DNA of 39,311 nucleotides from Sorangium cellulosum (GCF_001589285.1 NZ_JEMA01001049.1:653-39963), one strand, 5' to 3'. Positions 15,487 through 37,816 are shown, numbered from the stretch's first letter. The notes: generated by a model from the letters alone, not told the origin. Numbers and translations are program-made.

Positions 15487-15518
15487 CCTCGCGAGGATCC
15501 TGCGCCTTGTCGCAGGAT
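15487..15518. promoter_or_regulatory. Palindrome and inverted repeat in the eboD / EPS divergent region
   Basis: A perfect 10-bp palindrome (15487-15496) abuts a perfect 8-bp inverted repeat with a 6-nt spacer (15497-15504 with 15511-15518). Both lie 40-70 bp upstream of eboD, in the region that must hold promoters for eboDEC and for the EPS export gene. They are operator candidates only; no clear -35/-10 pair was found in the surrounding ~215 bp. Confidence 0.4.
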
Positions 15519-15660
15519 GAAAACTTCCCCTTGGCGGCGGACGGCCTTCCTGCAATGCTGGCGCCGCTCGGTGAGGACCGCGCAACCGCGCAGCCGTACT
15601 GCCGAGATCGCCGCGATCGAAACCCCGTACTGCCTGACTTCCTCCTCGATGCAGACGCCC

Positions 15661-16305
15661 ATGGAAGGCACAGCCCGTCCCACGAAACGGTCGTTCATGA
15701 GAGGAACGCTTGTGGCGGCGGCAGGGCTCGCGCTCGCCGCGCTCTCCGCCGGGTGCTCGCCCACGTACATCTACAATCCGGCGAACTACGCGAAGGAATA
15801 CGACCCGCGTAAGCACGAGTACGTGATCGGGGTCGGCGACCAGATCCGGATCAACGTCTGGCGCATGGCCGACCTGTCGAGCGACGCGCTCGTCCGGGCC
15901 GACGGCGTCATCACGATGCCGCTCATCGGCGACGTCTTCGTCTCCGGCAAGACCCCGAGCGAGGTGCGCGAGGAGCTGAAGAAGCGGCTCTCGGAGTTCG
16001 TGAAGGACGAGACCGCCGTGATCACCGTCGCGGTGACCGGGATCAACAGCTACCGGTTCGTCGTCAGCGGCAACGTCGCGCGCGCCGGCATTTACGCCTC
16101 CAACTACTTCGTCTCCATCTCCGAGGCGCTCGCGCTCGCCGGCGGCCCCAACCAGTTCGCCTCGACGGATCAGATCCTGCTCATCCGCATGGATAGCCCC
16201 GGCAAGTTCCGGCACATCCCCGTCAACTACGACGATATCGCCTCGCGGAAGCGGCCTGAGCAGGACCTCGTGCTCAAGGCGGGCGATACCATCTTCGTGC
16301 CCTGA
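15661..16305 (+). CDS. Polysaccharide export (OPX/Wza-like) lipoprotein, short form
   Basis: The product has about 214 residues from the ATG at 15661; ATGs at 15649 and 15697 are also possible and none has a clear ribosome binding site. A lipoprotein signal ends at LSAGC. One polysaccharide export sugar-binding domain follows (EYVIGVGDQIRINVW, DGVITMPLIGDVFVSGKT), then a single SLBB-like segment (YRFVVSGNVARAGIY, ISEALALAGGPN) and a closing LKAGDTIFVP. The chain stops there. It lacks the extra domains and the C-terminal amphipathic helix with which E. coli Wza crosses the outer membrane, so a separate outer-membrane channel is expected; the beta-barrel gene at 21461-22864 is the candidate. 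Only 2 bp separate it from the flippase gene. Confidence 0.85.
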   Translation: MEGTARPTKRSFMRGTLVAAAGLALAALSAGCSPTYIYNPANYAKEYDPRKHEYVIGVGDQIRINVWRMADLSSDALVRADGVITMPLIGDVFVSGKTPSEVREELKKRLSEFVKDETAVITVAVTGINSYRFVVSGNVARAGIYASNYFVSISEALALAGGPNQFASTDQILLIRMDSPGKFRHIPVNYDDIASRKRPEQDLVLKAGDTIFVP

Positions 16306-16307
16306 TC

Positions 16308-17789
16308 GTGGCCGGCTCCTCCGCGCTCGCCCGCAAGGCCGTCCTTGGCGCGGTCTGGACGATCGCGACGGGGCTCGGCTCGCGCGTGCTCGGCCTGATA
16401 GGCACCCTCGTGCTCACCCGGTTCATCGCGCCGGATGTGTACGGCGAGGTCTCGGCCGCCTCCGTCGTCATCATGACGGCGCATTTTCTTTCGAGCCTCG
16501 GGATCGGGCAGTACATCGCGTCGCGGCCGAACCTCGACCGCCAGATGCTCTTCAACGCGACGGTCTATTTCCACGCGGCGGGGCTCGTCGCCATCGGCCT
16601 CATCTACCTCCTCCGGGAGCCGATCGCGGTGCACCTCGTCGGCGCGCCGGGGATGCTCGAGTTCATGCCCGGGCTGATCCTCGCGATGCTCATCGACCGG
16701 CTCTGGTACATCCCCGACCGCCTGCTCATCCGCGAGATGCGGTTCCGCAGCGTCAGCCTCCGCAACGCGGCCGGCGAGCTCACCTACACCGCGGCGTCGG
16801 TCGTCCTCGCGATGCGTGGCTGGGGCGGCAATGCCATCGTCGTCGCCACGCTCCTGCGCGCGTTCGTGCGCGTTGTCACCACGGTCCCGGCCGTGAAGCT
16901 CGCGGAATGGCTCACGCCGAGCCCCCTCTCGCGCGAGAAGGCGCGCGAGCTGTTCGCCTTCGGCATCCCGCTGAACTTCGGATCGCTGGCGAACTTCGGA
17001 GCGTCCAAGTGGGACAACCTCGTCATGATCCGCCTCTTCGGGGAGCACGTCGGCGGCCTCTACAACCTCGCGTGGAACCTCGCCGACATCCCGGCCTCCC
17101 AGGTCGGCGAGCGCATCGGCGACGTGCTCGTCCCGTCGTTCGCGAAGCTCGAGCCGGAGCAGCGCAAGACCGCGCTCGTCCGCGCGCTCACGCTGCTCTC
17201 GCTCATCATCTTCCCGCTCGCGGTCGGCCTCGGCGCGGTCGCCCCGACGATCCTCAACGACACCTTCTTCAACGAGGCCTGGGAGCCGGCCGGCTCGCTC
17301 CTCGCCGTGCTGTCGGCGCTCGGCATCACCCGCCCGATCGGCTGGGTCATGTCCTCCTACATGCAGGTCTACGGCCGCACGCGGACGATCATGATCCTCG
17401 AGTGGCTCAAGGTCGGCGCGATCATCGGCGGCATCGCGCTGCTCGGATCGATCGGCGGCGTGCTCTGGGCCTGCGCCGGGGTCGGCGTGGCGTTCGGGGT
17501 GCACGCTCTGGCGAGCCTCTGGGTCGTCCAGCGCGCCGACGGCGTCCCCTACATGCGCCTGCTGCGCCCGCTGATCCGCCCGCTGATCGCGTGCCTGCCC
17601 ATGGTCGCGGCCGTGCTCGCCGTGCGCTACGGCGTGCGGGAGCTCGGGCCCTTGCCGCGCGGGTTCCGCCTGGGCGCCGAGGTTGTCGCGGGCGGGTCGG
17701 TCTTCGTCGCGTCCGCGCTGCTGATCGCGCGGCAGGCGTCGCGCGACTTCCTCCAGCTCGCCCGGGAAGCGGTGCGCCGCCGCCGCTGA
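16308..17789 (+). CDS. Wzx-type polysaccharide flippase (MOP superfamily)
   Basis: The product has 493 residues from a GTG two bases after the preceding stop. It has 12-14 predicted membrane segments. The N-terminal pattern ARKAVLGAVWTIATGLGSRVLGLIGTLVLTRFIAPDVYGEV is typical of Wzx/PST flippases, as are PLNFGSLANFGASKWDNLVM and the Arg/Lys-rich C-terminus. It should move lipid-linked repeat units across the inner membrane before Wzy polymerisation. The tight spacing to the OPX gene implies co-transcription. Directly after the stop lies a duplicated 18-bp element. Confidence 0.88.
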   Translation: MAGSSALARKAVLGAVWTIATGLGSRVLGLIGTLVLTRFIAPDVYGEVSAASVVIMTAHFLSSLGIGQYIASRPNLDRQMLFNATVYFHAAGLVAIGLIYLLREPIAVHLVGAPGMLEFMPGLILAMLIDRLWYIPDRLLIREMRFRSVSLRNAAGELTYTAASVVLAMRGWGGNAIVVATLLRAFVRVVTTVPAVKLAEWLTPSPLSREKARELFAFGIPLNFGSLANFGASKWDNLVMIRLFGEHVGGLYNLAWNLADIPASQVGERIGDVLVPSFAKLEPEQRKTALVRALTLLSLIIFPLAVGLGAVAPTILNDTFFNEAWEPAGSLLAVLSALGITRPIGWVMSSYMQVYGRTRTIMILEWLKVGAIIGGIALLGSIGGVLWACAGVGVAFGVHALASLWVVQRADGVPYMRLLRPLIRPLIACLPMVAAVLAVRYGVRELGPLPRGFRLGAEVVAGGSVFVASALLIARQASRDFLQLAREAVRRRR

Positions 17790-19317: not shown

Positions 19318-19642
19318 CGGAGGGGGCCCGCGCGGCGCCTCTGCCCACCTGCACGGCGCGCTCCCGGCCGCCGCGCGCGCAAAGGTGGCGCGGCGCGGCG
19401 TGGGCGGCGCGCCGCGGCGGGGCGGTCCTTGCGACAGCGGGTCCCTCCGTCGCGCGCCCGCCTGCCCGCCCGCAGCACCGCGATGTATCGCGCAACACCC
19501 GCGTTGTGGGCGGTGCTCGGCGGGGCTGCTCGCGGCGCGCCCTCGGTTACAGGTCACGGATGAGGGCTCTTTCCGCGGTCGCGAAATTGCCAGCATCCCC
19601 TTGATGTCAGGGCGCCGGTTCGGTACCCATCGAAGACGGTCC
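19318..19642. other. Intergenic stretch, no gene seen
   Basis: These ~325 bases are extremely GC-rich in the first half and fall to a more moderate composition near 19540-19640. No frame has coding features linked to the neighbours. An in-frame extension of the phosphatase gene back to 19385 is low-complexity Arg/Pro/Ala and is treated as non-coding. No clear promoter or terminator was found. Confidence 0.4.
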
Positions 19643-21376
19643 ATGTCCACGCCGCCGCCCATGGTCGGGCCAGGTCGAACGATGTCGCCTGCAGATGAGA
19701 GCCTGGGCTCTGCGCCATCGAGCTCGGATTGGAAGGGCCACCTGGAGATCCGCCTCGGCGATCTCCCGGGGACGCGGCGGCCGCTGACCGAGTCCCATAT
19801 CGTCATCGGCAGGGCGCCGGGCGTTCAGCTCACGCTCGACCACTACACGGTCTCCCGGCGCCACGCGGAGCTCTTCTGCGATCCGTTCGGCAGGTGGTGG
19901 ATCCGCGACCTCGGCAGCACCAACGGCACGCTCGTCAACGACGAGCGGATCAACGAGAAGGTGCTGAAGCCGGGCGATCGCATCGGGATCGGCGACTACG
20001 TCCTCGAGTTCCAGCTCACGGCGCGGGCCCCCCGCGTGCCGCTCGAGCCGGGCGGCCTCCATTTCGAGGAGGACAAACCGACAGCGATCCGCAAGCTCGG
20101 GGAGCTCGACCCGCCGCGCATCGCCGCGAAGCACCTGTTCACCTTGATGGACCTGTCGCGGCGGCTCCTCAGCATCGAGGACGCCACGGACCGGTTCGAC
20201 GCGCTCTGCCAGCTGATGGTCCGCGAGGACTTCCACGGCAGCATGGCGCTCGCCCTGCGGCTCCGGCAGAACGGCGCGCTCACGATCCTGTCCGGGCCGC
20301 ATCGCCCGTTCCAGTCGCTCCGGCGCGAGGACTCGGTCGCGCCGCCGTACATCTCGCGCCGCGTGCTCGCGGCGGTGCAGGACACGCGCGAGCCGGTGCT
20401 CGCCGGCAACCTGGTGAGCGACAGCGCCACGGTCGAGCTCACGATGTCGCGCGACGTCATGGCGCTCTGGGTCGTCGCGTGCCCGCTGCGGGTCGAGGAG
20501 CAGCTGATGAACCTGCTCTACGTGACCTTGCCGCCCGACTTCGGCAGCGTCGAGTGGCTCGGGCTCATCGCGCTCGCGGCCGAGGTCTACCAGCAGGCCG
20601 AGTCGGCCTGGGAGGCGCGGCGCCACGCGCAGGCGCACGCGGCGATCGAGCGCGAGCTCGAGATGGCGCACCAGATCCAGCGGACCTTCGTGCCGAAGCG
20701 GCTGGAGTTCAAGGCGCTGGACGTGGCGCTCGGCTTCGAGCCGTGCCGGTGGGTCGGCGGCGACTACGTGGACATCGTCCCGATGCCCGACGGCCGCCTC
20801 CTGCTCGCTGTCGCCGACGTCTGCGGCAAGGGGCTCCAGGCCGCGCTCATCGGGTCGAGCGTGCACACGATGGTGAGGGCGACTGTCGACGCCGGCCGCG
20901 GGATCACGGGCATGATGGACCGGCTGAACGCCTACCTCTGCGAGTACCTGCCGGAGCAGTCGTTCGTGACGATGGTGGCCGTCGCGCTCGACCCGGCGAC
21001 GGGCCGCATGGAGTGCGTCAACGCGGGGCACCCGCCGGCGCTCGTCGCGACAGCGGAGGGCGGCCTGCGGCACCTCCAGGCGGCCGTCAACCCGGCGCTC
21101 GGGATCGGCCTCGTGCCGATGGAGGCGCACCAGAGCGTGCTCGCGCCCGGCGAGGTGCTCGCGATGTACACCGACGGGCTCACCGAGCTGCGCAACTCGT
21201 CCAAACAGATGCTCGGCCTGCACGCGCTCGGCACCGGCTTCGCCAAGCTGTGCGCCGCCAGCGCTGGCCGCCCCGTCGCGTCGATCGCCGACAAGCTCAC
21301 GCAGATGCTCGAGGAGTTCCGCGGCGATCAGCTCCCCGAGGACGACAGGGCCTTCCTCCTCGCGCGCCGCACCTGA
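19643..21376 (+). CDS. FHA domain / SpoIIE-type PP2C serine phosphatase
   Basis: The product has about 577 residues from the ATG at 19643; 19604 is an alternative start. Residues ~25-120 are an FHA phosphothreonine-binding domain with IVIGRAPG, TVSRRHAELF and LGSTNGT. The middle (~165-330) resembles a GAF-like sensor. The C-terminal ~240 residues are a SpoIIE/RsbU PP2C phosphatase, with an ELEMAHQIQRTFVP linker, VGGDYVD, ADVCGKG, NAGHPPAL, YTDGLTE and DDRAF, so the metal-binding Asp residues are intact. RsbU-type phosphatases dephosphorylate STAS antagonists. A STAS/kinase pair lies 5.3 kb away in the same EPS locus and is the obvious candidate target. The FHA domain suggests input from a Ser/Thr kinase. 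It ends convergent with the beta-barrel gene. Confidence 0.88.
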   Translation: MSTPPPMVGPGRTMSPADESLGSAPSSSDWKGHLEIRLGDLPGTRRPLTESHIVIGRAPGVQLTLDHYTVSRRHAELFCDPFGRWWIRDLGSTNGTLVNDERINEKVLKPGDRIGIGDYVLEFQLTARAPRVPLEPGGLHFEEDKPTAIRKLGELDPPRIAAKHLFTLMDLSRRLLSIEDATDRFDALCQLMVREDFHGSMALALRLRQNGALTILSGPHRPFQSLRREDSVAPPYISRRVLAAVQDTREPVLAGNLVSDSATVELTMSRDVMALWVVACPLRVEEQLMNLLYVTLPPDFGSVEWLGLIALAAEVYQQAESAWEARRHAQAHAAIERELEMAHQIQRTFVPKRLEFKALDVALGFEPCRWVGGDYVDIVPMPDGRLLLAVADVCGKGLQAALIGSSVHTMVRATVDAGRGITGMMDRLNAYLCEYLPEQSFVTMVAVALDPATGRMECVNAGHPPALVATAEGGLRHLQAAVNPALGIGLVPMEAHQSVLAPGEVLAMYTDGLTELRNSSKQMLGLHALGTGFAKLCAASAGRPVASIADKLTQMLEEFRGDQLPEDDRAFLLARRT

Positions 21377-21394
21377 GCGCGCCCCGCGCGGCAA

Positions 21395-21428
21395 CCCGGC
21401 CGCGATGGGCGTGAGGGCGGCGGCCGGG
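21395..21428. terminator. Hairpin between convergent phosphatase and beta-barrel genes
   Basis: Perfect 9-bp arms (21395-21403 with 21420-21428) flank a 16-nt loop, 18 nt past the phosphatase stop. Candidate bidirectional terminator; no U tract. Confidence 0.4.
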
Positions 21429-21460
21429 CAGCTCGGTGAGGCCCCCCGGGCGACCAGGGG

Positions 21461-22864
21461 TCAGGGCGCGGCGTCGCCGGCCGCCGCCGGCTCCGAGCCC
21501 TCCGGCGGCTCGATCGGCTCCGGATCCCGGTGCGGCGGGCCCACGGGCCCCGCCGAGCCGAAGGGCTGGGTCATCGAGATGCGCGAGCCCGCCTCCATCC
21601 GCCGCGGGAACGCGCCCGACACGGACACGAGCAGCGCGTTGCGCACGATGCGCGTGTCGGGGAGCTCCGCTGTCCTCGCCGCTGTGTGCTGGTTCGTGTG
21701 CTGGTAGCGGAGCGCGAGGGCGAAATCGGGGATGACGATGACGGGGCTCCAGAGCAGCGCGACGTCGGTGAGCACCGCGGTCGTGTTCGGCCCCGTGTCG
21801 AGCTCGCCCTCGGCGTTCCTCTCGAGGGGCCGCGCGAACTGCACGCCGGCCGAGCCCTCGACCGACAGGCGCCAGGAGGGGCGGAGGATGGGCGCGGCGG
21901 CGCGGAGCGTGAGCTGGTGAGAGAGCTGGATCTGCTGAAGGAAGACGTTGGGCGTCGCCGCGTACATGTACGCGAGCTCGGCCTCGCCCCGGTCGTGCGT
22001 GTAGCGCAGGGCCGCGAGCCCGGCCGGCCTGACGAGGGACTCGGCGTCGCCCGTCAGGTCGGTGGCGACGACCCCGCCGACGTCGAGCTGGCTCGAGAAG
22101 CGGCGGCCGAGGTCGTGCTGCCAGCTCGCCACGAGCGTGCTGAGGAGCTGGTCGCGCCCCACGTACGTGTCCGGGGTCGCGGGATCGGCGTCGGTCACCG
22201 GGACGTTGTCGAAATGGGTGTAGCCGACCGAGAGCGCGAGCGACGCGATGTCGTGCCGGAAGATCCGCTGCGCGCTCAGCGTGTTCGCCGCGCTGTACGT
22301 GCGCTGCGGGCGGTCCAGGAGCGGGTTGTAGACGAGGAACGTCGCCGCCTGGCCGAGCTGCCAGACCGGCGAGGGCTGGAACGAGAACCCCTCGTTGACC
22401 GACCCCTGCACGAAGTTCGTCGTGCCGCCCGCGGTGCCCGCGATCGTCGTGGTCCCCGGCGCCTGCTCGAGCTGGAAGGTGTTGAGCTGGCCCTGCGATC
22501 CGGCGGCGCCGAGCGTCAGCGTCGTCCTCGGCGACGTGACGAAGCGGCCGGACCACATCGCCATGTTCGAGTACGAGTTCGCCTCCGAGTGCAGGAAGAA
22601 GAAGCTCGCCGCGAAGGTGTAGGACAGCGTCTGCGAGGTGCGCGGCGTCGTGTACGTGAAGATCAGGCCGGGGCTCGCGGTCCCGAAGCCGTCGGCCTCG
22701 GGGCCAGGCCCGGCCGGCGGCTCGGCCGCGGAGCTCACGTTGTCGGTGACGCCGATCGACCCGGTGAAGACGCCCTGGAGATACGCGTCCTGCGCTCGGG
22801 CGTCGTGATGGGTGAGGATCGCGCAGCCGAAGGCCGCGACCGCAATACCTCGTCCGGGGCGCAT
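21461..22864 (-). CDS. Outer-membrane beta-barrel protein of the EPS export system
   Basis: The product has about 467 residues from the ATG at 22864, which gives a Sec signal ending near ARAQDA. The rest alternates short amphipathic strands (for example GLIFTYTTPRTSQTLSYTF, RTTLTLGAAGSQGQ, ALALRYQHTN) with polar turns, as in a large beta-barrel. The C-terminal tail is Pro/Glu/Gly-rich. Its place between the phosphatase and the Wzc-like genes, and the short OPX protein nearby, fit the Myxococcus EPS arrangement in which a Wzp-type beta-barrel is the outer-membrane conduit. The barrel is seen as a pattern only; strand number and role are inferred. The gap to the upstream BY-kinase-like gene is 88 bp. 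Confidence 0.7.
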   Translation of the reverse strand: MRPGRGIAVAAFGCAILTHHDARAQDAYLQGVFTGSIGVTDNVSSAAEPPAGPGPEADGFGTASPGLIFTYTTPRTSQTLSYTFAASFFFLHSEANSYSNMAMWSGRFVTSPRTTLTLGAAGSQGQLNTFQLEQAPGTTTIAGTAGGTTNFVQGSVNEGFSFQPSPVWQLGQAATFLVYNPLLDRPQRTYSAANTLSAQRIFRHDIASLALSVGYTHFDNVPVTDADPATPDTYVGRDQLLSTLVASWQHDLGRRFSSQLDVGGVVATDLTGDAESLVRPAGLAALRYTHDRGEAELAYMYAATPNVFLQQIQLSHQLTLRAAAPILRPSWRLSVEGSAGVQFARPLERNAEGELDTGPNTTAVLTDVALLWSPVIVIPDFALALRYQHTNQHTAARTAELPDTRIVRNALLVSVSGAFPRRMEAGSRISMTQPFGSAGPVGPPHRDPEPIEPPEGSEPAAAGDAAP

Positions 22865-22952
22865 GAGGGCCGCAAGGTAACAATGGAGGCGGCGCGCGGC
22901 TACGCCTCCCCCACCTTTCGACGTGGGGAGCCGCCGGCCGCGCGCCGAGCGC

Positions 22953-24809
22953 TCAAGTGTCGAGCAGGACGACACCGAGGATGGGCGCCGGCCGGAGCTG
23001 CTCGATGGCCTGACGGATCGCCTTGCGGGTCGACTTCTTGACCAGGGACGTCATGACCACGCCGCTCACCGAGTCGGCGATCACGTTCACGTCCATGCTG
23101 CCGAGCACCGGCGGCGTGTCGATGATGATGTAGGCGTAGCCCGCGCGCTTGAGGCTCTCGATCGCGCTCGCGAACGCCACCGCGTCGAGGATCGGCGGGC
23201 GCTCCTTGCTCGGATCGACGGCCAGGACGTGGACGGGCGTCTGGAGGGCGAGCCTCGGGTCGGGCGACCTGCTGCCCGACGGCCCGTTCCGCTCCAACGA
23301 CTCGGCCGTGTCGTCGCTGGGCGCCACGGCGGGCGCCGGCGCGGCCTGCTCGACGACGACCCAGGGCGCGTACCGATTGTTGACGTGGCGCTGGACCTGC
23401 TCCGAGAAGCAGCTCGGCGGGTCGAACCGCAGCGCCCTGGCGATGCCTGGCTTGCGGATGTTCGCCTCGACGAGGAGGATCCGCCCGCGGACGGTCTCGC
23501 GCAGCGCGAGCGCGAGGTTGATGGCGCACGACGTCTTGCCCTCGCCCGGCGACGCGCTGGTCACCGCGATCGTCGTCCCGGCGCCCAGCGGCAGCTTGCG
23601 CCGGAGCGTGCGGTAGGCGTCCGCCTGCGGCGAGTACGGCGCGTGGACCATCACGATGTTCGGATCGACGGCGTCCGGCATCGGGAGCGGGCGCACGGTG
23701 ATCTCGCCCGGGCCGCCCAGGGACTCTTCCGGGAGGAGCCCGGCGGTCTCCGGCCCTGCGGGCAGGGAGCGCATGTGCTCGATGTGGAGCGACGGCGGCT
23801 CCTCGAACGTCGGGTCGAGCGACTGCAGCTTCGCGTCCACGGCGTGGTGCGCCGGGGTCGACACAACGCGGTTGAAGATGAGGGAGGGCGGCGAGGCGAA
23901 CGCGCTGGTCGCCGAGCGCTCCTGCGGCCTCTCGGGCGGCGGCGGCTGCTGCGGCGGCAGCTGCGGCGGAGGCACCTCGCGCACCGTCACCTCGCGCGAC
24001 GCGGGCGGCACCACGCGATCGAAGACGAGCGACGGGGGCGAGGGGTACGTCCCGCTGAACGAGCGCTCTAGCGGCGGCGAGCCCGCCGGGTGCGCCGGCG
24101 CGTCGCGCACCCCCACGTCGCGCGCCGGCGGCGCGATGACGCGCGCGATCGGCACCGGCGCCGACGCGTTCGTCGCGCCAGGGCCGCTGGACACGAGCCC
24201 AGGGCTGCTCAGGGTGGCGCTCAGATCGACGACGCGCGTCACCCCGGGGCCCACGCCGGGCCGCTCGGGGCCGGGCGGCAGCGCCGGTGTGTGCACGCCG
24301 TGCATCGCCACATGGCCCGGGTGCCCGCCGTGGTTCGCGGGCAGACCCCCCGCCAGGAACAGCGTCGCGGCCGCCGGCCCTCGGGGGGCCGCCGGCTGCT
24401 GCATGCCAGAATGGACGCCCGCCATCGGGCCGGGGCCGAGCCGTAGCCCCATCCCGTGCGGCGGCTGCGCGTGGCCCGACGGCGGCAGCTCCTGGCGGAT
24501 GGTCGGCGAGTCGAACGCGGCGTTCGGGTCCTCATGGCTGGAGCTCGGGCGCTCCGCCGAGACAACGTCCTCGGCGTCGTTCGCGAGGCGCAGGACGCGG
24601 GCGATCATCTCCTCGCGCACGTCCGGATCCGGCGCGATCGACCGCCAGTTGCCGACCACGTTGCGGAGCCGGCGCGCCTCGATGACGAGGGCGCGGACGC
24701 GCGCGGTCTGGTCAGCGCGACTCAGGAAGTCGCAGACCTGATCGAGCGCCCGCTCCAGGGAAGCGACCGGCGGGGGCTTTCCCGGCTCAGCACCGCCTGT
24801 CTCAGCCAC
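22953..24809 (-). CDS. BY-kinase-like ATPase (cytoplasmic half of a split Wzc) with long linker
   Basis: The product has 618 residues from a GTG with GAGG 5 nt upstream; it overlaps the preceding stop by 8 bp. Residues ~8-85 are a helical domain (ALDQVCDFLSRADQTARV). Residues ~90-385 are a Pro/Gly-rich linker with a recurring SPPSL element at about 257, 307 and 338. The C-terminal ~230 residues are a MinD/CpsD fold: Walker A ASPGEGKTS (~419), Walker A' LLVEANIRKPG (~445) and Walker B IIIDTPP (~561). The A' motif normally reads VDADLRRP; here both Asp are changed. The chain ends in GVVLLDT with no Tyr cluster. It may drive EPS chain control by ATP use without tail phosphorylation (inference). 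Confidence 0.82.
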   Translation of the reverse strand: MAETGGAEPGKPPPVASLERALDQVCDFLSRADQTARVRALVIEARRLRNVVGNWRSIAPDPDVREEMIARVLRLANDAEDVVSAERPSSSHEDPNAAFDSPTIRQELPPSGHAQPPHGMGLRLGPGPMAGVHSGMQQPAAPRGPAAATLFLAGGLPANHGGHPGHVAMHGVHTPALPPGPERPGVGPGVTRVVDLSATLSSPGLVSSGPGATNASAPVPIARVIAPPARDVGVRDAPAHPAGSPPLERSFSGTYPSPPSLVFDRVVPPASREVTVREVPPPQLPPQQPPPPERPQERSATSAFASPPSLIFNRVVSTPAHHAVDAKLQSLDPTFEEPPSLHIEHMRSLPAGPETAGLLPEESLGGPGEITVRPLPMPDAVDPNIVMVHAPYSPQADAYRTLRRKLPLGAGTTIAVTSASPGEGKTSCAINLALALRETVRGRILLVEANIRKPGIARALRFDPPSCFSEQVQRHVNNRYAPWVVVEQAAPAPAVAPSDDTAESLERNGPSGSRSPDPRLALQTPVHVLAVDPSKERPPILDAVAFASAIESLKRAGYAYIIIDTPPVLGSMDVNVIADSVSGVVMTSLVKKSTRKAIRQAIEQLRPAPILGVVLLDT

Positions 24810-26361
24810 GGCGGCCTCGGGACCCGCGCGTGGCGGCTGGCACGATGACGAGCACCGGAGCGAGCGCCATGCGATCGATATCTTCCATGTCGTAAACCCG
24901 ATCGTCGAACACGATGCCACGCGCCGCGGCGGCCGCGATGCCGGCCGCAATGGACATGAAGAGCCCGCCGATGGCAAGGATCAGCCGCGACGGGCTCGAG
25001 GGCGCGCTCGGCCTGTACGCCGGGTCGAGCACCTCGATCTGCGCCGAGTAGCCGCCCTGCTCCGAGCTCGCGGCCATCTCCGCGCGGAACGACTTGCCCT
25101 CGAGATCGGCGAGCCGCTGCTGCGCCCGCGCCTTCTCGCGGCTGAGCCGGGACCACTCCGTCTCGGTGTTGATGATCTGCTTCGCCGTCTCGCTCGCGTC
25201 GGCCGCGTTCCCCTTCTTCGCGCCCCTGCGCGCCGCGATCTCTCGCTCGAGCGCGGCGAGCTGGGACTTGATCTTCGCCTTCTCGGCCTCGTCGGTCGCG
25301 GCGACCTCCACGATCGGCGGCGGCGGCAGGATCAGCGCCTCCTCGGCGCGCCGCAGCGCCGCCTCGGCGTTGCTCACGCGGGCCGCCGCGGCCCGGACGT
25401 CGGGGTGCTGCTCGGTGAAGCGGGACTGCTTGTCCGCGAGATCCCGCCGCGCGGTCGCGAGCTCCTGCTCGGCCTGATCCCGCTGCCGCACGAGCGCGGG
25501 GGACGGCGCCCCCGCGGAGCCCGGCGCCGCCTGCTCCGGCTTGCCGGTGAGCCGGGCCCGCAGGCGGGGCACCTGCCGCTCGAGCGCCTCCAGCGTCGGA
25601 TCGGCGCCGGTGGTGCGGCGCTCCTGCGCGCGGATGGCGGCGCCGGTCTGCGCGCCGCCGGGCGCTGCCTGCTCGGCGGCGAACTCGGGGTGCTGGGCCA
25701 GGAACGCCGCGAGCTCGGCCTCTGCCTTCTCGACGTCCTGCTCCGCGCGCTTCAGCTCGGCGTCGAGGAACTCGTTCGTCAGCTTCGCCTGCGACCTGCG
25801 CATCCGCGTCGTCTCCTCGACGAGGATGTCCGCGAGCCGCTGCGTCACCTCCTGCGCCTGCTCCCGCGTCTCCCCTTCGGCCGAGATCGCGAAGGTGTCG
25901 GTCGATCGGGCCTTGAAGGTGATCTTGAGGCGGAGCCGGTCGACCGCGTCGACCATGCCCCGCTTCTCGAGGACGTCGGGGAAGAGGTTGAACTCGGTCA
26001 CGACCTTCTCGAGGTTGGAGCGCGCGAGCAGCGTCTCCTTCAGCCGCGCGGAGAGGGTGCGGAGCGGGTCGGGCCCGTCCGGCCCGAGGTACGTCGCCTT
26101 CACGCCCTCCCGGTAGAAGATCACGGTCTCGGAGCGGTACGCGGGCTTCCTCGACTGGACGACCAGCACCGTGAAGCCCACCCCCGCGAGCGCCACGAGC
26201 ACCGCCACGTACCAGTGCGCCAGGGTCCGGTTGATCATCGCGCTGATGCTGGGCGGCTGCGGGCCCGCAGGCCGCGCCGACGCATCGGCGGGAAGTGCCC
26301 CGAGCGGCTCCTGGGGCGGGGGGAGCCCGGCGGGCTGCTGGTTCATCTTCCAGTTGTCCAT
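24802..26361 (-). CDS. Wzz/GumC-type chain length determinant
   Basis: The product has 519 residues from an ATG preceded at 8 nt by GAGGAG. Plan: a Pro-rich cytoplasmic start, a first membrane helix (about 49-67, YVAVLVALAGVGFTVLVV), a long periplasmic region with extended coiled coil (about 150-430, rich in Glu/Ala/Arg), a proline-rich PAYRPSAPSSPSR stretch, and a second membrane helix (~455-475) with a short tail. This is the Wzz part of a Wzc co-polymerase, made as a separate protein from its ATPase partner encoded immediately downstream with an 8-bp overlap. It should set EPS chain length and link Wzy to the OPX exporter. Confidence 0.88.
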   Translation of the reverse strand: MDNWKMNQQPAGLPPPQEPLGALPADASARPAGPQPPSISAMINRTLAHWYVAVLVALAGVGFTVLVVQSRKPAYRSETVIFYREGVKATYLGPDGPDPLRTLSARLKETLLARSNLEKVVTEFNLFPDVLEKRGMVDAVDRLRLKITFKARSTDTFAISAEGETREQAQEVTQRLADILVEETTRMRRSQAKLTNEFLDAELKRAEQDVEKAEAELAAFLAQHPEFAAEQAAPGGAQTGAAIRAQERRTTGADPTLEALERQVPRLRARLTGKPEQAAPGSAGAPSPALVRQRDQAEQELATARRDLADKQSRFTEQHPDVRAAAARVSNAEAALRRAEEALILPPPPIVEVAATDEAEKAKIKSQLAALEREIAARRGAKKGNAADASETAKQIINTETEWSRLSREKARAQQRLADLEGKSFRAEMAASSEQGGYSAQIEVLDPAYRPSAPSSPSRLILAIGGLFMSIAAGIAAAAARGIVFDDRVYDMEDIDRMALAPVLVIVPAATRGSRGRRG

Positions 26362-26395
26362 AGTCCCCGCTCCTCGAAGGTTGGCTTGCGCCGCT

Positions 26396-26424
26396 CGGTC
26401 CGGAGCGCGTACGCCCCGGTCCGG
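26396..26424. promoter_or_regulatory. Direct repeat pair upstream of the Wzz-like gene
   Basis: CGGTCCGG occurs at 26396-26403 and 26417-26424, 21 bp apart (two helical turns), 35-63 bp before the Wzz-like ATG. The phasing suits a regulator site. In a genome this GC-rich, chance occurrence is possible. The remaining ~220 bp up to 26651 show no gene. Confidence 0.25.
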
Positions 26425-26651
26425 CAGACGGCTGCCTATGGTAGACGTGTGCTGCCCGAGCGCCAGCTTGTTGCACGCGGCCCTGTGCGCCGCGTCGCTG
26501 CGCCCACTCTGCGCCTACTCCATGCCCCGCCACGCTCGCGGGCAGGCGTGGCCGCGGTCCAGCGCCGGCGCGACGCCTTCGTCGACACCGCGCCGCCCTT
26601 GCCAGCGCTGCCGCTGTGGCCTGGTCGGCGGCGAGCACGCCGCCCCAGACG

Positions 26652-26951
26652 TCACGTCGGGAACACCCGGTCGAGGCGCAGCAGGCGGAAGATGGCGCGC
26701 GGCTGATCCCTCAGCCCCACGATGCGCACCTGGCCGCCGTTCGCGCGAACCCGCTTGAACAGCGAGACGATCACGCCGACGCCAGAGCTGTCGATCAGCC
26801 GGAGCGACGAGAGCTCGAGCGTGATGTTCTGGCGGTTCTCCGCCACCAGCTCGTCAACCAACGTCCTGAACTCCGGTGCGGTCACTGCGTCGAGGGTCCC
26901 CTCGAACTGCACGACCGTCTCATTGCCGTTATCGGTCCGCGTATAGCTCAT
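26652..26951 (-). CDS. STAS-domain anti-sigma factor antagonist
   Basis: The protein has 99 residues and is a single STAS domain of RsbV/SpoIIAA type. Strand FEGTLDAVTAPEFRTLVDEL is followed by ITLELSSLRLIDSSGVGVIVSLFKR, whose Ser residues in DSSG include the usual phosphorylation site, and QVRIVGL. In partner switching, unphosphorylated antagonist binds the kinase and releases the kinase's target; phosphorylation reverses this. Its ATG overlaps the stop of the kinase gene as ATGA, so the two are translationally coupled. It lies directly upstream of the Wzz-like gene in the same direction. Confidence 0.88.
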   Translation of the reverse strand: MSYTRTDNGNETVVQFEGTLDAVTAPEFRTLVDELVAENRQNITLELSSLRLIDSSGVGVIVSLFKRVRANGGQVRIVGLRDQPRAIFRLLRLDRVFPT

Positions 26952-27535
26952 TGGATTTTGATTCCCCCAGCGGCGCGGGCTGCGCCCGAGCGGGAGACGC
27001 TCCGCATTCGGAAACTGCTCGTCCGATGCCCCGTCGCCTCGGCGAAGTCGGAACCGGACGGCTCTTGTTCACTGCTACCTTCGCTGCCGTCGCCGGCGAT
27101 GCACGAGCTGCCGTCCCGCCGCTTCACCAGGCGGAGGACATTCGGGCTGCCGGGATGGTAGTCGACCTCATCCATGAATGATTTGATGATGAACAGCCCC
27201 ATCCCGGACTCGGGGAGGTCGTCGATGGGAGGGTTCTCGATGGCCGCGGGATCGAAGCTGCACCCCGTGTCCATCAGGCGGATGATGATGCCGTCCGCGT
27301 CGGACTCGATCTCGATGTCGACGTCGCCCGGCGGCCCATCTCTATATCCATGAATCGCGATGTTGTTGAACGCCTCGCCGAACGCCGAGACGGTCTGGGC
27401 CTCGAAATCCTCCAGGCTCAGGCCGGGCGACCCGCCCTCAGCCCTCCGAGGCGCGGCCATCTTGCAAGCGGCCGCCACCACGCGGAGGGCGAGGTGGCGA
27501 TAGGTCAACGAACCTGGTACTCGGAGTCGGATCAC
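26948..27535 (-). CDS. RsbW/SpoIIAB-like serine kinase (HATPase fold)
   Basis: The product has 195 residues from the GTG at 27535, picked over an upstream TTG at 27541 because GGAGG sits 7 nt before the GTG and only 1 nt before the TTG. GHKL ATPase motifs are the N box AFGEAFNNIAIHGY, the G1 box DTGCSFDP (second Gly replaced by Ser) and the G2 box ESGMGLFIIKSFMDEV. The C-terminal ~55 residues are Ser/Gly-rich and look unstructured, longer than in typical RsbW. It would phosphorylate the STAS protein encoded with it. No sigma factor gene is in the window, so its other partner is unknown. Confidence 0.85.
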   Translation of the reverse strand: MIRLRVPGSLTYRHLALRVVAAACKMAAPRRAEGGSPGLSLEDFEAQTVSAFGEAFNNIAIHGYRDGPPGDVDIEIESDADGIIIRLMDTGCSFDPAAIENPPIDDLPESGMGLFIIKSFMDEVDYHPGSPNVLRLVKRRDGSSCIAGDGSEGSSEQEPSGSDFAEATGHRTSSFRMRSVSRSGAARAAGGIKIQ

Positions 27536-27542
27536 GCCCAAA

Positions 27543-27547
27543 CCTCC
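27543..27547 (-). promoter_or_regulatory. Shine-Dalgarno site setting the kinase start
   Basis: GGAGG on the minus strand lies 7 nt upstream of the GTG at 27535 and selects it over the TTG at 27541. Confidence 0.65.
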
Positions 27548-27600
27548 ATCCGAGCTTGTACCCTACCACGTTCTGAACTATGGGAGCCACAAGGTAAACA

Positions 27601-28332
27601 GTGACACCTGGCGTTCGTGTAGCGAAACGTGCGATCGACATCGCGGGCTCGCTCGTGGGTCTCACGCTGACCCTCCCGCTCTACCCCCTCATCGGCGCGG
27701 CCATCTACCTCGAGTCGCCCGGGCCGATCTTCTACATGCAGCGCCGTGCCGGGATGCTCATCGGCACGGAAGTACGGGACGGCGTCGCCTACCCGCGGTT
27801 CGTCGAGTTCCATATGCGCAAGTTCCGTTCCATGCGCGTGGACGCCGAGAAGATGACAGGGCCCGTGCTCGCCCAGCAGGACGATCCGCGCATCACCCGC
27901 GTCGGGCGCTTCCTGCGCAAGACGCGGCTCGACGAGCTCCCGCAGTTCTGGAGCGTGCTCATGGGCGACATGAGCATCGTGGGGCCGCGCCCCGAGCGGC
28001 CGGAGCTGCTCGTGAACCTCGCGCTCGCCATCCCGTTCTTCGAGGAGCGGATGCGCGACATCAAGCCGGGCATCACGGGCCTGGCGCAGGTCTCGCTGGG
28101 CTACACCGGGCGCGCCCCGGCGGAGAGCGAGGTCGCGGCGTTCGAGGCGACGCTGACCAACCCGTTCGGCCTCGAGGAGGCGGAGGGGGCCGAGGCCGAC
28201 GACATGCGGATGAAGCTGCTCTTCGACCTCGCGTACGCCGCGTCGCTCGAGAAGCTCTCGACGTTCCTCCAGATGGAGCTGTCGATCATCCTGAAGACCC
28301 CGCTCGTGATGGTCCTCGGCCTCGGGCGCTGA
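27601..28332 (+). CDS. Initiating sugar-1-phosphate transferase (bacterial sugar transferase family)
   Basis: This 243-residue protein starts at a GTG with AAGG about 7 nt upstream. It contains only the catalytic part of the WbaP/EpsZ/PglC family. There is one membrane-inserting helix (IDIAGSLVGLTLTLPLYPLIGAAIYLE), then SPGPIFYMQRRAG, MRKFRSMRVDAE and the active-site block TRLDELPQFWSVLMGDMSIVGPRPERPE. It transfers a sugar phosphate from a UDP-sugar to undecaprenyl phosphate and so starts each EPS repeat unit. The multi-pass N-terminal part of WbaP is absent, as in minimal monotopic members. An acidic insert (LEEAEGAEADD) sits before the C-terminal helix. It is divergent from the kinase/STAS genes across ~65 bp. 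Confidence 0.9.
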   Translation: MTPGVRVAKRAIDIAGSLVGLTLTLPLYPLIGAAIYLESPGPIFYMQRRAGMLIGTEVRDGVAYPRFVEFHMRKFRSMRVDAEKMTGPVLAQQDDPRITRVGRFLRKTRLDELPQFWSVLMGDMSIVGPRPERPELLVNLALAIPFFEERMRDIKPGITGLAQVSLGYTGRAPAESEVAAFEATLTNPFGLEEAEGAEADDMRMKLLFDLAYAASLEKLSTFLQMELSIILKTPLVMVLGLGR

Positions 28333-28433: not shown

Positions 28434-29810
28434 CTAGCCCCTCCTGCTCAGCACGAAGATCACGAGCACCAGGAAGAGATCGGCCAGGATGAGCCGGTAC
28501 ACGTCGCGCTTCTCGAGGCGGATCGAGAAGTTGGGATCGACGCTCTTGATGGCGCAGTACAGGGCCCCGGCGAGGCCGAAGTAGATCCAGAGCACGTAGT
28601 GGTAGGTGAACGAGAGGAAGAAGATCCCGACCATCATCCCGCAGAACCCGGCCATCATCGCCATGGACCAGGCGCGGATCCCCGCGAAATGGGCGCCGTG
28701 CTCGTACCGCTTGAGCGCGACCAGCGAGATCTTGAGCGTGAGGTAGATCATCGCGCTCCACGCGAACATCCCGAGCGGGCCGAGCTCGGAGAGCGCGAGG
28801 AGGTAGGCGTTGTGCGCGGTGAGCCAGTGGTGCTCCGTGAACTGGCGGTAGCCCGCGCCCATCAGCGGGAACATCCGGTAGATCAGGAGGCCCTCGGAGA
28901 GGATCTCCGTGCGCTCGTTCGCCGACTCCTCCGCCTCGCCGCCGCCGCGGCCGCCGAGGAGCATGAGCGGCGCGGCGAAGACGGCGCCGAAGAGCGCGCC
29001 GCGGACGCCGTACTTCTTGACGAAGTAGACGCCGAGCACCGTCGCGAAGACGAGCTGGCCGCCGCGCGACTGCGTGAGGATGATGGCGGTCGCGATCACG
29101 AGCAGCGACGCGAGGACGAGGAGCGCGCGCGTGAACGATCGCTTCTGCTCGAAGAGCGCGAAGCTGAACGGCAGCACGATGCCCGAGGTGAGCGCGAGCT
29201 CGTTCGGATCCTGGAGCACGCCGCGCCAGCGCACGCGGCCGTTGATCGTCGACGTCTTGAAGAGGCCGACGCGCTCGCACAGGTACTCGGCGTCGGGATC
29301 GGCGCCCGGTCCCTCGCGGCAGTCCATGCGGGTCTCGCAGAAGCGGCCGTCGGGGATGCCCGCCTCGCCGCGCGAGCCGCCGATTGTCTGCGTCATCGCG
29401 AGGCACTGAAACGACGAGAACCCCTGGTGGATGGCGACGCCCGCCACGAAGAGGCCCATCACGAGCACCGTGCCGGCGAGCTTCTGGAAGCCCTTGAAGC
29501 CCTCTGGGCTGTGCCCGATGAGGAAGAAGAGCACGAACGTCACGCTGATCGAGACGAAGCCCTCGGAGAACTCGCCGGGGTTCCGCAGGCCGAGCGTGAG
29601 CACGCACCAGAGGTAGACGACGATCGCCCACCGGAGCTGCGGGGTCGCCTTCAGCCTGACCTTGCCCAGGGCGAGGTCGAGTCCCATGCCCATGAACGCG
29701 AGGCCGAGCCACAGGTAGAGGAACGGCAGGTTCTCGAACCGCTCGTCCCACTCCTGAGGCCTGCCGTAGATGAAGATGATGAGAAGGATGACCCCGGGGA
29801 GCGCGAGCAT
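28434..29810 (-). CDS. Wzy-type EPS polymerase / O-antigen ligase family protein
   Basis: This 458-residue integral membrane protein has about 11-12 hydrophobic segments. Wzy/WaaL features are ILTQSRGGQLVF with the conserved Arg, a large extracytoplasmic loop, and the late TAHNAYLLALSELGPLG motif. A Cys-containing loop (FQCLAM, RFCETRMDCREG, YLCERV) may form disulfides in the periplasm. With a flippase and co-polymerase in the same locus, polymerisation of repeat units is the best-supported role; ligase activity cannot be excluded by sequence. GAGGA lies about 8 nt before the ATG. The SGNH hydrolase gene lies upstream in the same direction. Confidence 0.85.
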   Translation of the reverse strand: MLALPGVILLIIFIYGRPQEWDERFENLPFLYLWLGLAFMGMGLDLALGKVRLKATPQLRWAIVVYLWCVLTLGLRNPGEFSEGFVSISVTFVLFFLIGHSPEGFKGFQKLAGTVLVMGLFVAGVAIHQGFSSFQCLAMTQTIGGSRGEAGIPDGRFCETRMDCREGPGADPDAEYLCERVGLFKTSTINGRVRWRGVLQDPNELALTSGIVLPFSFALFEQKRSFTRALLVLASLLVIATAIILTQSRGGQLVFATVLGVYFVKKYGVRGALFGAVFAAPLMLLGGRGGGEAEESANERTEILSEGLLIYRMFPLMGAGYRQFTEHHWLTAHNAYLLALSELGPLGMFAWSAMIYLTLKISLVALKRYEHGAHFAGIRAWSMAMMAGFCGMMVGIFFLSFTYHYVLWIYFGLAGALYCAIKSVDPNFSIRLEKRDVYRLILADLFLVLVIFVLSRRG

Positions 29811-37189: not shown

Positions 37190-37423
37190 CGCGCCGGGCG
37201 CGCTCCCCCCGCGAATGAGCGGGAGCCGGCGCGGGCGGCGCGGCGCGTCTCCAGGAAACACGCCGTCCGCCCCGCGCCGGGGCGCCGTCTCCCGCCTCCC
37301 TGCGCGCGCCTCTCACGGCCGACCGCCGGCATCGCGGCCGCCCGGGCGGCGCGATCCCGGGGCTCGCCCCCTGCGATCCAGGGTATGATCGCGCGGCCCC
37401 ATCCCGCCCCTTCGGGAACTGGC

Positions 37424-37429
37424 AGGAGG
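37424..37429 (+). promoter_or_regulatory. Shine-Dalgarno site for the small STAS-like gene
   Basis: AGGAGG lies 9 nt before the GTG at 37439. It selects that start over an ATG at 37385. Confidence 0.7.
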
Positions 37430-37438
37430 TCTCTCAAC

Positions 37439-37816
37439 GTGTTCGAGATCAAAGTCGACCGGATCCACGCCATCGTGGATTTCGTCCTCGAGGGCCGTGT
37501 CCGCCTCGAAGAGATGGAGAACTTCGTCAGCGAGCTGAGGAAGGCGTGCGAGGGCCTGCAGGGCCGGGAGATCAAGATCAAGGCCGATGTCCGCGGCTTC
37601 CGGCCGATGGCGCCCGAGGTCGCGGAGAAGATCCGCGCCGTCCAGGAGTTCGGCCTGGAGCTCGGGGTGATGCGCGTCGCCGAGATCATCGAGAGCGACA
37701 TCGTGGCGCTCCAGCTCAACCGCGTGGCGCGCGAGAGCGGCACGGACAAGGTCCTCCGGCGCTTCTGGGACGAGGACGCCGCCCACGAGTGGCTCCTCCA
37801 CGGCGATCCTGAGTAG
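37439..37816 (+). CDS. Small STAS-like (SpoIIAA-like) protein, function unknown
   Basis: The product has 125 residues from a GTG with an AGGAGG site. The order beta (FEIKVDRIHAIVDFVLEG), helix (EEMENFVSELRKACEGLQG), beta (REIKIKADVRGF), helix (PEVAEKIRAVQEFGLELG) and beta (VMRVAEIIESD), ending in a helix (VLRRFWDEDAAHEWLL), matches a STAS/SpoIIAA-like fold. The end WDEDAAHEWLL is typical of STAS-like proteins of this size. There is no obvious phospho-Ser DSSG motif, so classical partner switching is unlikely. It stands alone between two hairpins. Assignment is by fold pattern only. Confidence 0.65.
   Translation: MFEIKVDRIHAIVDFVLEGRVRLEEMENFVSELRKACEGLQGREIKIKADVRGFRPMAPEVAEKIRAVQEFGLELGVMRVAEIIESDIVALQLNRVARESGTDKVLRRFWDEDAAHEWLLHGDPE

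Follow-up and report, generated by a model that had tools for sequence, protein, structure and literature searches.

A conserved partner-switch module of Sorangium cellulosum is linked to exopolysaccharide genes and co-occurs with a short initiating sugar phosphotransferase

Introduction

What does a partner switch, a three-part protein on/off device that as a rule governs transcription, control when its genes lie among those for an exopolysaccharide (EPS) and no sigma factor gene accompanies them? The question is raised by a 39,311-nucleotide stretch of Sorangium cellulosum DNA (the window), which forms part of contig C1047 of an 11.9 Mb draft genome. Chance co-location of switch parts is a real worry here, because S. 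cellulosum possesses 71 STAS-type and 13 SpoIIE-type proteins (PMC2887360). A partner switch of comparable setting is SypA/SypE of the Vibrio fischeri syp locus, in which a STAS protein with a phosphorylatable serine (S56) and kinase and PP2C activities are encoded in a Wzx/Wzy locus together with the priming transferase SypR, and which acts below transcription (PMC4517449, PMC10120452, PMC5801674). The target of SypA is unknown (PMC10120452, PMC11112999). Across Vibrionaceae, the STAS protein (A) and the priming transferase (R) are among the best-conserved proteins of the orthologous eps/syp locus (PMC5801674).

Results

Pfam and NCBIfam profiles placed the switch genes within a Wzx/Wzy polysaccharide locus encoding a short Wza/OPX protein, Wzx, a UDP-sugar dehydrogenase, Wzz, a BY-kinase-type ATPase, Wzy and glycosyltransferases. 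The 262-aa OPX/Wza-like outer-membrane polysaccharide export protein is encoded at 15517-16305 (+; Poly_export, 8.2e-23), the Wzx-like flippase at 16308-17789 (+; Polysacc_synt_3, 2.9e-39) and a Wzy/O-antigen-ligase-type polymerase at 28434-29810 (-; Wzy_C, 2.7e-12). The same profiles bore out the initial annotation of an FHA-PP2C phosphatase, a STAS antagonist and an RsbW-like kinase in this locus, and its statement that no sigma factor accompanies them held for the window ORFs scanned. Likewise, the ATGA coupling of the kinase and STAS genes, and their position upstream of the Wzz and ATPase genes, are evident in the sequence.

The 195-aa RsbW/SpoIIAB-like serine kinase (26948-27535, -; HATPase_c_2, 3.3e-21; best NCBIfam models RsbW/SpoIIAB) starts with GTG, preceded by GGAGG, and its stop codon overlaps the STAS start by 4 bp. 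Its N, G1 and G2 boxes are intact, as in GHKL anti-sigma-type kinases: the N-box Glu/Asn, the G1 Asp/Gly and the G2 glycines were invariant in an alignment of 18 kinases, and E54, N58, G91, G111 and G113 were invariant across 30 sequences. An AlphaFold2 model (mean pLDDT 77.8, core mostly >90, disordered tail) had SpoIIAB (1th8) as its best PDB match, with 1th8 and RsbW (6m37) ranking ahead of histidine kinases. The tail, residues ~140-195 (27100-26948, -), is disordered and of low complexity, and its terminal AARAAGGIKIQ is conserved within the genus. The kinase gene is duplicated in tandem in some Polyangia loci (L075, L080 and G361:C433), and L075 and L080 also carry two STAS genes. The STAS-only protein (99 aa; 26652-26951, -; Pfam STAS, 3.2e-21; TIGR00377, 4e-20) bears the phosphorylatable motif DSSG, of which D54, S55, S56 and G57 were invariant in 16 orthologs; it thus has the conserved phosphorylatable serine of Rsb/Spo antagonists.

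The phosphatase is a 577-aa protein in which an FHA domain, a middle (GAF-like) region and a SpoIIE-type PP2C domain follow one another (19643-21376, +; Pfam FHA, 1.3e-19; SpoIIE, 6.1e-44). Its ORF spans 19385-21376 (+), and the likeliest start is the ATG at 19643, which is conserved in congeners. The aligned sequences retain the metal-binding and catalytic aspartates D374, D392, D511 and D567/568, as befits a PP2C of the SpoIIE/RsbU type. Pfam revealed no receiver domain in the kinase or in the FHA-PP2C protein, which are separate proteins here rather than a SypE-type kinase-receiver-PP2C fusion. As judged from their intact active sites, the switch parts look functional. A frameshift interrupts the FHA-PP2C gene of one congener (L029, G003:C4, 5610-7341), reflecting either an assembly error or a real break.

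On the strand of the STAS gene, the Wzz-type polysaccharide co-polymerase gene (24802-26361, -; TIGR03007-like) starts 290 bp downstream and is followed by that for the BY-kinase-type ATPase of the Wzc/EpsG group (22953-24741, -; AAA_31, 4.9e-07; TIGR03018, 6.5e-24), whose true start is uncertain but lies at about 24741. The ATPase has VEANIRKP at the position of the DxD-type Walker A' motif of active BY-kinases, contains a long insertion in its ATPase domain and is without a C-terminal tyrosine cluster; like EcpK of M. xanthus, it may be a pseudokinase (PMC12004946).

The key neighbour of the switch, absent from the initial annotation, is a divergent gene at 27601-28332 (+; Bac_transf, 4.1e-49) encoding a 243-aa PglC-like short initiating polyprenyl-phosphate sugar phosphotransferase (PHPT), so that the STAS gene shares its Wzx/Wzy locus with a priming PHPT, as sypA does. 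The protein is PglC-like by both sequence and fold (PDB 8g1n/8e37), and D111-E112, the catalytic Asp-Glu of a monotopic phosphoglycosyl transferase, is invariant. Three insertions (residues 55-67, 169-195 and 218-222) set the subfamily apart from the long PHPTs encoded in this group of genomes, and in the second of them G170, S176, N187 and P188 are invariant. The whole genome encodes only two PHPTs. A promoter scan of the 65 bp (27536-27600) that separate the PHPT gene from the divergent kinase-STAS pair returned no sigma-70 consensus.

We asked how widely this arrangement is kept. It was found in all five congeners (5/5), G002 being represented by a 10-kb contig that holds the block only in part, and in some dozen other genera of Polyangia. 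A search with the kinase profile through about 85,000 genomes yielded 36 myxobacterial loci (L064-L099), 30 of which contained a PHPT gene within the DNA examined, mostly divergent and <0.6 kb from the kinase gene. The ATGA overlap of kinase and STAS genes recurred among these loci, and in many of them the STAS gene is followed by those for Wzz and the ATPase. A SpoIIE gene was present within the DNA examined around the kinase in 19 of the 36, and directly followed the STAS gene in L071, L082, L087, L095 and L098, encoding an FHA-GAF-SpoIIE protein in the last two. Several lineages thus keep the three parts together as one module, although the phosphatase gene lies 5 kb from the others in the window. 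Linkage of this module to EPS genes in close relatives, on which the initial annotation had staked its proposal, is therefore retained in the congeners and beyond. Taken together, these findings provide good support for the view that the three genes are a conserved, EPS-linked partner-switch unit.

We likewise examined how the parts are distributed. Among 59 relatives, the kinase (E<=1e-12), the STAS profile and the short PHPT were found in exactly the same 17 genomes. The short-PHPT profile left a wide score gap between its subfamily and ordinary long PHPTs in these relatives (1e-82 vs 1e-43). The association of kinase with PHPT was strong (Fisher p=3.6e-15, and 4.8e-12 at the genus level), with the reservation that these p-values ignore phylogeny. 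An FHA-PP2C ortholog was present in 12 of the 59, namely in 12 of the 17 kinase-positive and in none of the 42 kinase-negative genomes. When the survey was widened to 377 Myxococcota genomes, the kinase was found in 24 and the short PHPT in 23; the two lists differ only by G308, whose kinase match is the weakest and is partial. Synteny together with this co-occurrence rules out chance co-location of the switch parts. In several genomes a part lies on a different contig from the kinase: the PHPT in G055, G123 and G365, the STAS gene in G031 and the PP2C gene in G020. These cases suggest that linkage alone does not explain the co-occurrence, and are suggestive only, since draft contigs may still adjoin in the cell. 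The distribution of Wzz, considered as a tied partner, did not match: it occurred in seven kinase-negative relatives and was missed in two kinase-positive ones (G041 and G055), its association with the kinase being p=4e-7 when phylogeny is ignored.

Distance correlations across 14 loci, uncorrected for the species tree, were highest for STAS-PHPT (r=0.82; jackknife 0.78-0.85) and for Wzz-BY-kinase (0.78). Correlations between these two groups were lower (STAS-Wzz, 0.54; PHPT-Wzz, 0.44), and those of the kinase were modest in the same uncorrected set (kinase-PHPT, 0.55; kinase-STAS, 0.38).

We next considered the sigma factor. No SigB/F/G-family sigma exceeded the family's curated cut-off in the genome itself or in the 59 relatives, and the remote target of a canonical switch is therefore absent; a control set exceeded the cut-off with the same model in one genome. 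The best matches were RpoD-like, RpoH-like and FliA-like sigmas, all below the SigB/F/G cut-off, and a remote SigB-type sigma was rejected on this basis. The proposal that the switch governs EPS transcription through a remote sigma factor is consequently not supported in its canonical form. A neighbourhood probe saw no sigma gene near the kinase in the 36 myxobacterial loci, while in Clostridia loci the same probe recovered a sigma gene directly after a SpoIIAA/SpoIIAB-like pair.

Outside Myxococcota, PHPTs were sampled through plasmids only. Within this limited sampling, the closest was that of Plesiomonas shigelloides, which falls in the same clade (support 0.987) and is without the large insertion. 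A STAS gene lies 17 bp after this PHPT gene, and the locus also encodes an HATPase_c_2-receiver-SpoIIE protein, the architecture of SypE. In three long-PHPT control loci, no STAS or SpoIIE gene was annotated within 8 kb (<=8 kb). Of the other plasmid STAS matches, that of Vibrio sp. THAF190c has a PP2C gene nearby and no PHPT, and one from Nostoc is likewise without a PHPT. On a Rhodobacteraceae SC52 plasmid (L205, 7808-18273), a SpoIIE-STAS-kinase operon lies directly upstream of genes for a response regulator, a DUF3131 protein, an acyltransferase and a glycosyltransferase, with no PHPT annotated. Such a set beside polysaccharide genes counts against a switch dedicated to PHPTs.

Discussion

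FHA domains read phosphothreonine. We give an even chance to the following explanation, which is built on sequence comparison: the window encodes a sigma-independent partner switch, resembling SypA/SypE, that is dedicated to one exopolysaccharide pathway, that begun by the short PHPT. S55 of STAS would be phosphorylated by the kinase and stripped of its phosphate by the FHA-SpoIIE phosphatase when the FHA and middle regions of the latter receive a signal. Free STAS, or the kinase that STAS releases, would then set the activity of the short initiating PHPT or of a complex containing it, at what would be the committing step of the pathway. In this scheme we infer the phosphotransfer, the direction in which the switch works and any direct binding to the PHPT. 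The PHPT step is probably what the switch gates, being the most economical target suggested by the association. A more specific form of this proposal, which we hold tentatively and with somewhat less than even confidence, is that STAS or the kinase directly turns the initiating PHPT subfamily on and off, such that polysaccharide synthesis is gated at its first committed step without a sigma factor, SypR is the output so far missing for SypA in Vibrio, and the 169-195 insertion with its invariant Ser176 is a candidate site of docking or phosphorylation.

Other readings were weighed against this one. In a canonical switch with a remote sigma, the kinase would act as an anti-sigma factor until antagonized by STAS, and the sigma thus freed would transcribe the EPS genes. 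By sequence and fold alike, the nearest counterparts of kinase and STAS are indeed SpoIIAB/RsbW and SpoIIAA/RsbV, the RpoD-like, RpoH-like and FliA-like sigmas of the genome leave room for another type of sigma as target, and switches of Chlamydia and Pseudomonas are reported to target non-SigB sigmas (studies cited in PMC8256260; PMC6482189). We nevertheless regard this reading as unlikely, given the empty SigB/F/G searches and kinase neighbourhoods described above and the exact tie to the PHPT subfamily, which it does not predict. Action on an assembly protein, the other branch of the initial proposal, fits the data better than the sigma branch, but whereas it pointed at Wzz and the ATPase, exact co-occurrence and the strongest STAS co-divergence favour the PHPT. 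That the target is instead a different assembly protein, above all Wzz or the BY-kinase-type ATPase encoded directly downstream of STAS, appears improbable; both genes follow STAS in many loci and Wzz is associated with the kinase, yet Wzz is present in seven relatives without the kinase and was missed in two with it, and its correlations with STAS and the kinase fall below theirs with the PHPT.

Equally improbable, in our estimate, is that the switch acts through a further regulator on transcription of the locus or on another post-transcriptional step, the PHPT being a co-inherited marker of the pathway. In its favour, kinase and PHPT have a common short divergent promoter region, which would suit transcriptional control just as well, and STAS proteins of the RbaV and HmpV type work through unknown targets, according to studies cited in PMC10120452. 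However, a non-exhaustive examination of the neighbours showed no conserved DNA-binding partner, and the co-occurrence persists in apparently unlinked cases. The co-occurrence may nonetheless arise because the genes are inherited as a cassette, or because the switch is dedicated to the whole pathway and not to the PHPT itself.

Comparison with known systems places the switch. With RsbU/RsbV/RsbW and SpoIIE/SpoIIAA/SpoIIAB of Bacillus it shares the same three families, intact active sites and the kinase fold; it differs in being EPS-linked and in having no SigB/F/G sigma over the cut-off, adjacent or elsewhere in the genome. Because that defining sigma was sought and not found, the window switch does not belong to the canonical sigma-controlling family. 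SypA/SypE resembles it in the phosphorylatable serine of STAS, the kinase and PP2C parts and the Wzx/Wzy locus with a priming transferase, whereas SypE is one kinase-receiver-phosphatase fusion and the window kinase and FHA-PP2C are separate and lack a receiver. The window switch is thus one that works like SypA/SypE, and not a SypE-type fusion. BtrU/BtrV/BtrW of Bordetella likewise comprise a PP2C, a STAS protein and an RsbW-like kinase. To our knowledge, they have no link to a PHPT. The Btr set acts on secretion and not solely as an anti-sigma system (PMC8256260), its output being type III secretion as opposed to polysaccharide. SiaABC of P. aeruginosa is a biofilm-controlling phosphatase-kinase-antagonist set, and similarity to SiaA extends over the C-terminal half of the window PP2C. 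SiaABC is linked to a diguanylate cyclase. The window ORFs that were scanned showed no GGDEF domain, and hence no diguanylate cyclase, and SiaABC differs further in its threonine phosphorylation (PMC7647112). Finally, short phosphoglycosyl transferases of the PglC type have the same fold and catalytic region as the window PHPT, to which the myxobacterial subfamily adds the insertions and the tie to a partner switch.

For several sigma-less STAS proteins, and for SypA in particular, no output is known. The exact phylogenetic match between partner switch and PHPT subfamily, echoed in Plesiomonas, offers a specific and testable target, the priming transferase. If STAS does bind the PHPT and alter its activity, the first step of polysaccharide synthesis would prove to be under a new form of control, and such switches in myxobacteria and gammaproteobacteria would gain an output; the tie could thereby resolve a known puzzle of Vibrio biofilms.

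Two further genes of the locus deserve mention. The ORF at 21461-22975 (-) is conserved and matches no Pfam family. At the far end of the locus, adjoining a glycosyltransferase gene, 37385-37816 (+) encodes a second STAS-fold relative, a SpoIIAA-like protein that reaches the PF11964 cut-off and lacks the DSSG motif, and this gene is kept in G036 and in Sorangium.
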